Translations under genes and position numbers: made by a program
Part shown: positions 11,631-15,446 of the stretch, one piece after another
How the letters are laid out: every line of letters starts with the position of its first letter
Position numbering within the stretch: the stretch's first letter is position 1
Notes under the pieces: generated by a model
What the model saw: the letters and a program-made list of their open reading frames with translations, nothing else
Database searches by the model: none
What the model was told of the DNA's origin: nothing
Assembly: GCF_000143885.2 (NCBI RefSeq)
Contig: NC_018581.1
Location: 1,364,001-1,428,000, forward strand
DNA: 64,000 nt
Source of the DNA: Gordonia sp. KTR9
GTDB lineage: Bacteria; Actinomycetota; Actinomycetes; Mycobacteriales; Mycobacteriaceae
Direction: 5' to 3'

Positions 11631-12514
11631 CCTCCCTCGGCACCGCGGATCACTGGGCTTTCGAGGCGATCGGCACCCGGTGGACGATCAGCACCCCGGA
11701 GCCGCTGCCCGCCGACGTCGTCGGCGCGGTGGGCGTCGAGATCGACCGGATCGACCGGGCGTGGTCACGGTTTCGGGACGATTCGACGGTCGCGGACATG
11801 GCCAGGCGGGCGGGCCGATACCCGATCGCCGCCACCGACCAGCCGCTCGTCGACTGGTATCGCCGTCTCTACGACCTCACCGGCGGTGCCGTGTCGCCGC
11901 TGGTGGGTCAGACGCTCGCCGACGCGGGTTATGACGCGGCATACTCGCTGCGCGCATCGGCGCAAGTGCCGGTGGCCCCGGCCTGGGACGCCGTGATCGG
12001 CGAGCACGAGGGCGCACTGGAGATCCGCGAACCGGCGTTGCTCGACGTCGGTGCCGCCGGTAAGGGATTCGCGGTCGATCGGGTGGCGGAGATCGTCGGT
12101 GAGAGCTTCGACGACTTCGTGGTCGACGCCGGTGGCGACATGGTGATCTCGCCGCGCTCCCGGGGGCTGCGGGTGGCGCTGGAACATCCGTCGGACCCGA
12201 CGAGGGCGATCGGGGTCGTGTCCGTCGCCGGTGGCGCGATCTGCGCGTCGGCGAGCAACCGGCGGGTGTGGGCCGACTGGCATCACATCGTCGACCCGCG
12301 AACCGCCTCGCCCGCACGGGAAGTTCTGGCGACCTGGGTGATCGCGCCGTCGGCGATGGAGGCCGACGGCCTCGCGACGGCGCTGTTCTTCACGCCGGCG
12401 GCGTTTCTGCGCGGCGACTTCGACCACCACCGTGAGGGTTTCCACCACGTGACCATCCGACGCAACGGGAGTGTCGAGCACACCGCGATCCCCGGATTGG
12501 AGTTGTTCCTGTGA
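11627..12514 (+). CDS. apbE: FAD:protein FMN transferase ApbE
   Basis: ApbE moves FMN from FAD onto a Ser/Thr of extracytoplasmic flavoproteins. The sequence has the family core LLDVGAAGKGFAVDRVAEI, VDAGGDMVIS and WHHIVDPRTASP (Mg/FAD site) followed by APSAMEADGLATALFF. The N-terminal family segment WAFEAIGTRWTIST lies upstream of the first GTG in frame (11729), and no ATG, GTG or TTG precedes it. The likely start is CTG 11627, which overlaps the lipoprotein stop as CTGA; starting at GTG 11729 would give 261 aa and lose the conserved N terminus. No export signal is seen. It overlaps the next gene by GTGA (12511-12514). Function is confident, start moderate. Confidence 0.85.
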   Translation: MTSLGTADHWAFEAIGTRWTISTPEPLPADVVGAVGVEIDRIDRAWSRFRDDSTVADMARRAGRYPIAATDQPLVDWYRRLYDLTGGAVSPLVGQTLADAGYDAAYSLRASAQVPVAPAWDAVIGEHEGALEIREPALLDVGAAGKGFAVDRVAEIVGESFDDFVVDAGGDMVISPRSRGLRVALEHPSDPTRAIGVVSVAGGAICASASNRRVWADWHHIVDPRTASPAREVLATWVIAPSAMEADGLATALFFTPAAFLRGDFDHHREGFHHVTIRRNGSVEHTAIPGLELFL

Positions 12515-14091
12515 CAACGCTTCTGCCGCAGCTTCTCTCGCCGATCGATGCCACCCGGCGACACCTGACTCCGTATCGGGCGGTGCTGTGCGGGTTGGTG
12601 GTGCTGGCGGCGGCTGCCTTCGTCGTGTCCGCGACCGACTCCGATTTCGGCTACGGCCCGGGCGACCTCGCGGTGTGGCTGTCTGTCGCGGTCGGGGTCA
12701 GCGCGGTGGTGAGCTATGCATGTGCCGGTGTGCTGCGGGTGCCGCCGAACTCCGATTCGTGGCTGATCACGGGACTGATCCTGTTCTTCGTCCTGCCCGG
12801 TGGCTCTGAGGACACCGCGGTGGCCACGGTGGCGGTGGGCGCCGCGATCGCCGCGGCGTCGAAATACGTTCTCGCGTGGCGTCGTCGGCTGATCGTCAAT
12901 CCCGCGGTCGCGGGCGCGATCGGTTGTTATGCGTTGGCCTACGCCGGTGTCGAGGGCATCAGCTTTCCCTTCTGGTGGGTGGCCGCCGAACCGCTTCTCG
13001 TGCCGATGATCGTCGTCGGCGCGATCGTCGTGACGCTGATCCGCGACTGGCGGATGGCTCTGGTGTTCATCGGTGCCTCGCTCGTCACGATCGGGGTCGT
13101 CGAGCTGGTCCGGGGTGGGCAGGACCTGTCGACGTGGATCGTGTCGAGTCCGATGCTGTTCGTCGCGGCCATCATGCTGCCCGAACCGCTCACGTCGCCC
13201 GCCACCGGAATCCATCGTCTCGTCTACGCGGCCCTGGTGGGTGCACTCATGCACTGCCAGTACACGGTCGCGATCACCGACGCGTACACGTTGGCGTTCG
13301 TGCCCGAGGTCGCCTTGCTCGTCGGATGTCTGTACGCCTTCGCCGTCCGGCTGGTGACCGGGACCGCGCGCCGGGTGCCGCTCGATGTGGTGACCCTCCC
13401 GGTCGCCGACCGAACCTACGCGGTGCGAGGCGAACCGGTCGGTGCCCCTGCGTTGTTCCGGGCGGGGCAGTGGTCGAGCGTCAGCGTGCCGCGATGGTCG
13501 GCGCCGGTGTGGTCGGGTTCGCGGCGGGTCTTCTCGTTCGTGTCCGCTCCCCGGCAGCAACCGGTGGAGTTCGGTTTCACCGTCGCCTCGACGCCGTCCG
13601 CGTACAAGGCGGCACTGGTCGAGGGGACCGCGCGCCGCGCCTACGTCGACAACATCGGCGGTGACTTCGTGCTGCCCCGGGCATTTCCGTCGACGGGCTC
13701 GGTCGTGTTGATCGCATCCGGGATCGGGATCACGCCGTTCGTGTCGATGGTCCGGGAACTCGTGCAAGCGGGGCCGGACGGAGACCTCTCCCGTCTGACG
13801 GTCGTGCACGTCCTGCGGGATCACCGACGCGCGGTCTACGCCGACGATCTCGACAGAGCCCGGGCGGCGAACGCGCGCGTCGTGACCGTCGACGCGCCGG
13901 AGCTGGCCGACGGCATCGACGATCCGGCCCGGCTCGCCGACCTGCTCGGTCCCGACGCGGCCGGCGCACACTATTACGTGTCCGGCACACCGGCGTTCGT
14001 CGAACGGACGTCCGCGGCGATCCGCCGCCTAGACGGTTCCACGAGGACCCAGCCCTGGCGTGTGCACGCCGACTCGTTCTCCGGGTACTGA
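12511..14091 (+). CDS. RnfD/NqrB-like membrane domain fused to a ferredoxin-NADP reductase domain
   Basis: The first part of this 526-aa fusion (about 20-285) is a multi-helix RnfD/NqrB-like domain with the RRLIVNPAVAGAIG (FNPA-type) and MLPEPLTSPATG motifs. The second part (about 290-526) is an FNR-like module with the flavin motif R339-VFS, preceded by FRAGQWSSVSV, and the nicotinamide motif G404-IGITPFVSM. It should carry electrons from NAD(P)H across the membrane to the FMN lipoprotein encoded two genes upstream. The flavinylation SGAT motif of true RnfD/NqrB is not seen, so the membrane part may use noncovalent flavin. GTG 12511 overlaps the apbE stop. The family assignment is good; the direction of electron flow is inferred. 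Confidence 0.82.
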   Translation: MTTLLPQLLSPIDATRRHLTPYRAVLCGLVVLAAAAFVVSATDSDFGYGPGDLAVWLSVAVGVSAVVSYACAGVLRVPPNSDSWLITGLILFFVLPGGSEDTAVATVAVGAAIAAASKYVLAWRRRLIVNPAVAGAIGCYALAYAGVEGISFPFWWVAAEPLLVPMIVVGAIVVTLIRDWRMALVFIGASLVTIGVVELVRGGQDLSTWIVSSPMLFVAAIMLPEPLTSPATGIHRLVYAALVGALMHCQYTVAITDAYTLAFVPEVALLVGCLYAFAVRLVTGTARRVPLDVVTLPVADRTYAVRGEPVGAPALFRAGQWSSVSVPRWSAPVWSGSRRVFSFVSAPRQQPVEFGFTVASTPSAYKAALVEGTARRAYVDNIGGDFVLPRAFPSTGSVVLIASGIGITPFVSMVRELVQAGPDGDLSRLTVVHVLRDHRRAVYADDLDRARAANARVVTVDAPELADGIDDPARLADLLGPDAAGAHYYVSGTPAFVERTSAAIRRLDGSTRTQPWRVHADSFSGY

Positions 14092-14213: not shown

Positions 14214-14276
14214 CGCGAAACCGCTGACTGTGCGGCAGATTTCGTCGACTGTGCGTTGATTCTCGTTGACTGTGCG
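14214..14276 (+). repeat. Array of three 21-bp direct repeats (left arm)
   Basis: The core GACTGTGCG recurs with exact 21-bp spacing; its 10-bp form begins at 14225, 14246 and 14267. The best unit end is TTTCGTCGACTGTGCG. The third unit reads TTGATTCTCGTTGACTGTGC then G. The array is matched in inverted orientation at 14431-14493. Confidence 0.85.
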
Positions 14277-14430
14277 TTTGTTTCGCGAGTAGTGAGGGGG
14301 CTTGGCAGTCGCGACTGCTCGGTCGAATGAAGTTTCGTCCTCCTCAGGTCGATCGAAGGGCAGATTGCCCTTCGGTAGTGCTGACGTGGACGCAAATTTT
14401 CGAACAGTGGCCCAGTGGCGGATCCGCGAG

Positions 14431-14493
14431 CGCACAGTCGACGAAAAGCGACGCACAGTCGACGAAAAGGGACGCACGGTCGACGGATGACCG
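14431..14493 (-). repeat. Array of three 21-bp direct repeats (right arm, inverted)
   Basis: CGCACAGTCGACGAAAAG begins at 14431 and 14452, and the diverged CGCACGGTCGACGG at 14473, again at 21-bp steps. Read on the minus strand these are TTTTCGTCGACTGTGCG units, identical in core to the left array. Either transcript could fold into a stem of about 60 bp with a loop of about 155 nt. Confidence 0.85.
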
Positions 14494-14495
14494 AC

Positions 14496-15445
14496 TCACC
14501 CGGCCAGGGCGCGGAGAAAGAACCCGAGGTTGGCCGGCCGCTCGGCGAGGCGGCGGACGAGGTAGCCGTACCACTGCTCGCCATAGGGGATGTACACCCG
14601 GACCCGCGCGCCGGCGTCGGCCAGGCGATGCTGCTCGTCGACGCGAATCCCGTACAGCATCTGGTGTTCCCACGTGTCCGGGGACCGTCCGAACTCGCCG
14701 GCGAGGATCGCCGCGGCGTCGATCATCGTGGGGTCGTGGGTGGCGACCATCGGATATCCGGAACCCTTCATCAGCACCCGGAGGCAGCGCAGGTAGTTGT
14801 CGTCGACCTGTCGGCGCTCGACGAAGGCGACCGCGGCCGGTTCGGCGTAGGCGCCCTTGCACAACCGGATTCGGGCTCCCGACGACGCGAACTCGGCGCA
14901 GTCGTCCTCGGTGCGACGCAGGCAGGCCTGCAGCACGGTGCCGGTGTCCGGGAAGTCGTGGCGCAACGACCGCACGATCGCCAGCCGCTGATCGACGGTG
15001 GCGTGGCTCTCGGCGTCGACGGTGACCAGGACGCCCAGCCCGTCGGCCGCCTCGACGATCGTCCGCGCGTTCTCCTCGGCGATCTTCGCGCCGTGCTCCG
15101 GCAGACCCAAACCCACCGCGGTGAGCTTCAGCGACACCTCGAGGGATCCGGGAGATGTCGCACCGAGCCCGGACATCGACTCGAGCAGTGCGAGATACGC
15201 ACCCACCGTCGCGTCGGCCTGGGATTCGTCGACGGTGTCCTCGCCCAGGAAGTCGACCGTCACCGCGATCCCGTCGTCGACTTCGCTTTCGACCGCGCTC
15301 ATCGCGGTGGCGATCGATTCGCCCGGGACGAACCGGCGGACCACCTTCTCGGTCACCGGCCATCGCTGGGACGCGTCCCTGATCCGTTCGCTGCGCGACG
15401 CCGCAACGATCGCCGGCCGCAACACGGTGTCGAAGACGGAACCCA

Positions 15446-15446
<1 letters not shown>
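14496..15446 (-). CDS. putB: Proline dehydrogenase
   Basis: The protein is 316 aa, matching the short single-domain enzyme of actinobacteria. It shows the PRODH barrel motifs LKLTAVGLGL, RIRLCKGAY, VATHDPTMID, EHQMLYGIR and the FAD/proline-binding VRVYIPYGEQWYGYLVRRLAERP. It oxidises L-proline to delta-1-pyrroline-5-carboxylate with FAD, passing electrons to the respiratory chain at the membrane. Its ATG overlaps the stop of the pruA gene (ATGA at 15443-15446), so both proline enzymes are coupled, in the same order as Rv1187-Rv1188. A divergent PucR-type activator gene lies upstream of pruA. Confidence 0.94.

Follow-up and report, generated by a model that had tools for sequence, protein, structure and literature searches.

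Phased arrays of a 21-bp direct repeat behind Gordonia genes as candidate protein-binding sites that may end transcription

Each of two facing triplets of a 21-bp repeat between convergent genes of Gordonia sp. KTR9 is a member of a family of short, phased direct repeats that is scattered along the chromosome, patchily distributed among related genomes, retained between species and biased towards the sense side just behind stop codons. Such arrays are most readily explained, at a probability of roughly 0.37, as sites of a putative sequence-specific DNA-binding protein, most likely serving as polar ends of transcription. The two triplets lie in a stretch of 64,000 nucleotides, which is called the window at its full length, and had been picked out from its letters without database searches (hereafter the sequence-only reading); G and L numbers are our handles for genomes and loci.

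All six units of the window stand at 21-bp steps where the sequence-only reading had placed them (Table 1), and its estimate of arms of about 60 bp lying about 155 bp apart agrees with the measured arms of 67 nt, which are 76% complementary and separated by 154 nt. The arrays are 3' of both neighbours, as had been said: the left one is sense to the upstream forward-strand gene and lies 131 nt past its stop, while the right one is sense to proline dehydrogenase, its first unit lying 11 nt past the stop codon. Each unit consists of an asymmetric 12-bp core, GTCGACYGKGCG, and a 9-bp spacer. The 17-bp core that the units had been thought to share proved too long, as the full 17-mer TTTTCGTCGACTGTGCG occurs in two of the six units, both in the right arm, whereas the 12-bp core is common to all six, in variants that match those at other arrays.

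Table 1. Features of the window (positions counted from its first letter).
Feature	Position	Strand	Remarks
Oxidoreductase NAD-binding domain gene, convergent neighbour	12511..14091	+	NQR2/RnfD-like match under Pfam cut-off
Left array	14223..14276	+	three 21-bp units; cores 14223-14234, 14244-14255, 14265-14276
14-bp palindrome GCAGTCGCGACTGC	14305..14318		L163 differs by one base
Dispersed hairpin repeat in loop	14330..14398		33-nt arms, 76% complementary, 3-nt loop; outside the 21-bp family
Right array	14431..14484	-	three 21-bp units; cores 14473-14484, 14452-14463, 14431-14442
Proline dehydrogenase, convergent neighbour	14496..15446	-	stop codon 14498-14496

Between the arrays, the palindrome announced for the loop was located, and the announced hairpin with 9-bp arms exists as well (14354-14374) but is only the tip of the longer hairpin listed in Table 1. 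That hairpin is a second dispersed repeat of about 70-80 nt with a tip like GAAGGGCA-NNN-TGCCCTTC (window; L445-L452, L454-L458), which has one match in the KTR9 genome, ten in G064, six in G065 (two of them the same place on both strands), five in G068 and four in G067, long stems being predicted for most of the copies shown. G064 has its ten matches yet no 21-bp pairs, and a 21-bp array is present at two of the 15 loop-hairpin loci examined, namely the window itself and its probable counterpart in G068; the hairpin is possibly a bidirectional terminator or a REP-like element. Since the 21-bp family is dispersed, lies in sense orientation at stop codons, is constrained in core and phase and shows no excess of RNA folding in single arrays, the inverted pair of the window is best taken for two independent arrays, each belonging to one of the convergent genes, and the hairpin that lies between them for an unrelated dispersed repeat.

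The best named relative by proline dehydrogenase is Gordonia lacunae (87%, records closest to the window's having possibly been excluded), and in its ortholog locus (L163) both arrays are present, two units being recognised in either. Arrays are absent from the ten further Gordonia and Williamsia proline dehydrogenase orthologs examined, one of which (L153) ends just past the gene. Other repeats or hairpins, judged by eye, stand behind this gene in Gordonia and Williamsia (L147, L150, L152, L155, L156), so that unrelated repeats seem to occupy one gene end.

In the KTR9 genome, 66 phased pairs of adjacent units were found, against 0 for a reversed control pattern, and they occupy about 28 places between 0.18 and 5.04 Mb on the main contig, which is 5.44 Mb long. 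The 14-mer TCGTCGACTGTGCG with at most one mismatch has 74 matches in the genome, against 3 for the reversed pattern; in the window, 14-mer matches with at most three mismatches number 46 against 26.6 expected, a count reached by 0 of 100 shuffles. Neither of the two outcomes that the sequence-only reading had set against its own proposal was found: instead of cores scattered singly without phasing, 15 of the 16 exact matches stand within phased arrays, as do 43 of the 72 main-contig matches with at most one mismatch, and instead of a lack of conservation, arrays are conserved between species. Among the 29 matches outside arrays, five were checked, and by the script's gene calls two lie just behind genes and three in or at coding sequence. 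The search of this genome and its relatives that had been proposed, for other arrays and their position relative to gene ends, returned a dispersed family with arrays at gene ends.

The phase is equally regular. All 24 same-strand distances below 1 kb between 14-mer matches are 21, 42 or 63, a count made on a phase-free list that holds 72 of the 74 matches, the two on contigs C1 and C3 being omitted; array loci were otherwise selected by the 21-bp pattern and so were not phase-free. Furthermore, in four genomes, two neighbouring cores that lie at 15-30 bp from each other have a step of exactly 21 bp in 49 of 52, 113 of 116, 106 of 107 and 45 of 46 cases (313 of 321 when pooled), and in G449, from a second genus, 38 pairs have a 21-bp and 6 a 22-bp step; the 21-bp phasing claimed for the window therefore holds, with few exceptions, in five genomes of two genera. 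Arrays comprise 2 to 12 units. Most KTR9 places have a single orientation, facing pairs being recognised in three (the window, L125 and L131), and at L119 a gene is flanked by two facing arrays. In G009 and G017, arrays also stand head to head around a short common centre (L278, L288, L290, L296, L309, L312), an arrangement that was not recognised in the KTR9 or G012 loci.

Distribution across genomes is uneven. Among 59 Gordonia genomes, at least one pair is present in 35, at least ten in 14 (11 to 132) and none in 24, and a ranking by the identity of one marker protein mixes array-rich with array-free genomes. With a stricter pattern, six of 397 genomes of the order matched, namely three Gordonia, G449, and G246 and G367 with one GGTGCG-type match apiece that was taken as chance; G449, which belongs to another genus of the same family, has 151 pairs with a GGG variant against 0 for the control. 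One exact degenerate pattern had 0 matches in viral contigs, one KTR9 array used as query had no match in a phage collection, and the same array had plasmid matches over only 27% of its length, in 40 Rhizobium records at E 0.1, so that a phage or plasmid origin draws no support from these searches. Clustering of neighbouring genes in four genomes, with the large common enzyme and transporter clusters left undissected, gave no recurrent recognisable family as a linked trans-acting gene, except DUF222 in KTR9. No prior description of such Gordonia repeats was found among the open-access papers listed, and in that literature six core 12-13-mers (both strands, T and G variants) occurred in one paper, on a human promoter.

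This patchiness suits the main and close rival of the binding-site reading, which we regard as a serious if tentative possibility: a dispersed repeat akin to STAR or REP elements that has no host function, is copied, expands by slippage and survives where it does least harm, between stop codons, off promoters and, in frame, in those stretches of proteins that tolerate it. The histories of individual arrays are also in keeping with it. Twelve of the 20 G012 array regions read are orthologous to KTR9 array regions and ten array regions are common to G009 and G017, while none is clearly common to the two groups among the regions read (20 in G012, 20 in G009 and 19 in G017, from those listed, beside 30 overlapping loci in G449); one protein pair adjoins an array in both groups (L270, L308). 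Orthologous arrays, moreover, differ in unit number. A small non-autonomous element in the usual sense, which the sequence-only reading had entertained, finds no support, as no terminal inverted repeats or target duplications were seen, on the strength of two insertion points compared with array-free relatives; at one of these, two units equal the array-free sequence in length.

Against a repeat without function stands the contrast between core and spacer. Middle units, picked because they lie between two good cores, whatever their own match, carry 1.62-1.72 bits at each core position in four Gordonia genomes, where the spacers have 0.65-0.85, and 88 to 94% of them conform to the core there; in G449 the core has 1.73 bits and the spacer, which is better conserved, 1.18. 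Additionally, in 13 pairs of orthologous KTR9 and G012 arrays the spacers are locus-typical (best-match identity 0.695 versus 0.610, permutation P 0.002), and core identity is similar whether units are compared within a locus or between loci (0.935 versus 0.911, a figure favoured by units having been found by their core). A core that is kept while spacers diverge, at strict spacing, argues for selection in place, and core constancy with fixed spacing is what a bound site of fixed geometry would leave.

Placement relative to genes offers a second line of evidence. In five genomes, 135 distinct arrays or pieces divide into 112 that are intergenic, 17 called in genes (some wrongly) and 6 at locus edges. 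Across the 75 intergenic intervals with a single array, 45 arrays lie within 20 nt of a stop (28.1 expected), and 36 have their 5' end no more than 20 nt behind a sense stop (20.4 expected; reached in 0 of 5000 random placements), whereas the antisense counterpart is at chance (21 versus 20.5 expected). The sense-stop signal is driven by tandem intervals, with 17 against 4.0 expected, and convergent intervals by themselves show no significant enrichment. By type, 30 of the 75 intervals are convergent and just 6 divergent, a count without a genome-wide baseline that would nevertheless agree with a repeat lacking function; tolerance alone would not, however, predict the sense bias at stops. In G449, 14 array pieces are listed, of which 8 begin directly at a sense stop or no more than 10 nt past it; one of the 8 does so by way of an overlapping gene call, and two arrays are listed as two pieces each. 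Genes were called by a simple script that missed the window's proline dehydrogenase and the aldo/keto reductase of L274, so the right array of the window and the L274 array were scored far from a sense stop when their true distances are the 11 nt given above and a few nucleotides; the window interval holds two arrays and hence lies outside the 75.

Strong hairpins by a simple score follow 0 of 26 arrays and 29 of 185 control stops (Mann-Whitney P 0.013), and a folding-energy version of the comparison is not significant (1 of 23 versus 32 of 185, P 0.18, Fisher P 0.14). A strong hairpin does follow the array at L135, which may for that reason be transcribed.

Six of the groups called in genes were taken as genuine: a GDSL lipase-like gene, an abhydrolase-like gene (Pfam score just under the cut-off), an FAD and iron-sulphur oxidoreductase, RNase E, an AMP-binding enzyme and a permease. 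Calls that were dropped comprise two-unit, likely chance matches (L119, L300, L314), an array between ThiC and kinase domains (L120), overlong gene calls (L139) and a short doubtful frame (L414). Arrays are antisense in five of the six groups and sense in the oxidoreductase, the GDSL group being counted as antisense despite the script's sense frame for L275 because that copy is orthologous to L123. Since 21 bp equal seven codons, units within proteins stay in frame, which again suits a repeat without function. In the abhydrolase-like gene, array-free species equal the two-unit version in length and four units amount to 42 extra bases, so that substitution or templated replacement gave rise to the two units. 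In two Gordonia species, RNase E (identified by a Pfam match for L289, of which L297 is the ortholog) has 12 (L289 88-3420) and 5 (L297 160-3294) in-frame units near its C-terminal end, past the catalytic domain.

Under the binding-site reading, asymmetric 12-bp sites recurring every two helical turns, with a free 9-bp spacer between them, would be occupied next to one another along the same helical face by a putative protein present in the array-bearing lineages, and the bound array would impede RNA polymerase as it exits the gene in sense orientation and thereby set a polar end to transcription. Each convergent gene of the window would have an array of its own, so that the two blocks would face each other. 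The antisense bias within genes would fit as well, since a polar barrier should be tolerated in antisense, but at five to one it is small and could reflect a tolerated peptide instead. The analysis turned up no binding protein, and what such a protein does once bound cannot be read from phasing and core conservation alone. Against a barrier count the antisense arrays beside stops (e.g. L126, L128, L264), the arrays in DUF222 leaders that face away from the gene, the lack of significance in convergent intervals, and the more frequent 22-bp steps and better conserved spacer of G449. A transcription barrier and a nucleoid-protein site, both among the options of the sequence-only reading, are each possible.

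For the second of these, the arrays would be bound by a protein that organises the nucleoid or chromosome and links arrays lying far apart, gene ends being merely harmless positions. The phasing would suit binding on one face, and the spread of places along most of the main contig and the range of 2 to 12 units are compatible with it; we nonetheless consider it improbable, as it leaves the sense bias at stops unexplained and many species of the same genus are without arrays.

Slightly less probable again is a 3' untranslated RNA element, whereby the transcribed array would bind a protein that stabilises or processes mRNA, or a facing pair would yield duplex RNA. Sense placement directly after stops and the possibly transcribed array at L135 are in its favour, and the long stem foreseen for either window transcript is borne out in the window itself, where transcripts of both strands fold better than shuffles (z -7.92 and -7.35) and the predicted folds pair the facing arrays with each other and include the loop hairpin. 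Eight single-orientation arrays, however, have no excess of RNA folding (z +0.69 to -1.65), and single-stranded RNA needs no strict 21-nt spacing. With facing pairs a minority in the KTR9 genome, processed or long-stem RNA fails as a general explanation, and an RNA stem as the general function was rejected on the evidence of those eight arrays.

DUF222 genes, which we take to be 13E12-like, have a 21-bp array in their leader at L074, L075, L078 and L087 of KTR9, plus L073 by eye, and in relatives at L348-L350 (G068, G065, G031); the array lies upstream of a TCGAACNNNNGTTC-like box, which may resemble the SOS box, and is directed away from the gene. A similar DUF222 leader that lacks an array occurs in G067, whose genome has a single pair, and the best-matching DUF222 copies of G067 and G012 (L346, L347) likewise have array-free leaders. 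A second DUF222 subfamily (L076, L077, L079) has no array and carries short GTTCAC-type leader repeats. DUF222 as maker or owner of the arrays was rejected because array counts do not track the subfamily: G079 has 98 pairs with a best match at E 1.2e-8, and G067, with 81% identity, has one pair.

A GtrA-like gene after the aldo/keto reductase gene (L119 4821-5519; L315-L343) is reversed in all four genomes that bear arrays there, with a facing array recognised on its other side in three of the four, and runs forward in 11 of 11 array-free loci where it was found, 16 of 30 loci having been tested and one being without a GtrA match. This gene is 69% identical between KTR9 and G031 and the neighbouring gene 95%, which weakens a simple inversion and makes gene replacement more likely.

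Recombination or integration sites, or parts of DUF222/13E12 elements, are the least probable account, for which the leader arrays and the GtrA-like orientations speak and against which it weighs that close DUF222 relatives are neither needed (G079) nor sufficient (G067), that most array loci read have no DUF222 neighbour and that two compared insertion points have no target duplication.

To our knowledge, the way in which transcripts end in high-GC actinobacteria is incompletely understood. If the arrays are bound barriers, they would represent a host-encoded system of termination or insulation that is readable from sequence alone, and its presence and absence among species of one genus would provide a natural test. 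If they are only dispersed repeats, a short direct repeat held in helical phase while its spacers diverge would constrain models of how repeats originate and persist. A more specific version of the binding-site reading, which we hold to be unlikely, is a chromosomal counterpart of the stoperators of mycobacteriophages, in which a patchily inherited putative protein would, in each genome, end or insulate transcription behind tens of genes, both in Gordonia and in one or more other genera, its sites being kept by selection on the core and multiplied by unit duplication.

Among known systems, REP/BIME and REPIN sequences are dispersed repeats that are common just after stop codons, and their units are palindromic hairpins associated with a RAYT transposase; the unit here, in contrast, is an asymmetric, non-palindromic direct repeat, and the eight single-orientation arrays have no folding excess. 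Stoperators, for their part, are bound by a repressor with HTH and Stoperator domains and stop transcription elongation, and their sequence differs from the array core. STAR elements of Staphylococcus are alike in being interspersed direct repeats with a short conserved core and variable spacers and copy number, in having locus-specific sequences, in occupying positions that differ between species, in an abundance that departs from phylogeny, and in that function and spreading mechanism are open there too (PMC3532100). Correspondingly, spacers in the 13 array pairs here are locus-typical at P 0.002, as compared between species and not strains, and array-rich and array-free genomes interleave by the identity of a single marker protein. 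STAR spacers measure at least 40 bp against 9 bp here, and the STAR core, T(G/A/T)TGTTG(G/T)GGCCC(C/A), is other than GTCGACYGKGCG (PMC3532100); the 21-bp step, the sense-biased adjacency to stops, the in-frame protein copies and the two genera belong to the arrays here.

Mycobacteriophage stoperators are asymmetric 13-mers in short intergenic spaces that are oriented with transcription and whose repression is lost on reversal (PMC9283540). Likeness lies in short asymmetric sites, 12 bp here and 13-mers there, that are repeated genome-wide in short intergenic spaces, and in orientation, with 36 sense placements against 20.4 expected here, antisense exceptions included; the difference is that stoperators are sites of a known repressor in phage genomes, whereas tandem arrays on bacterial chromosomes would have a putative binder (PMC9283540). 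The stoperator may thus be taken as the closest working analogy and STAR as the closest repeat class, with membership claimed in neither.
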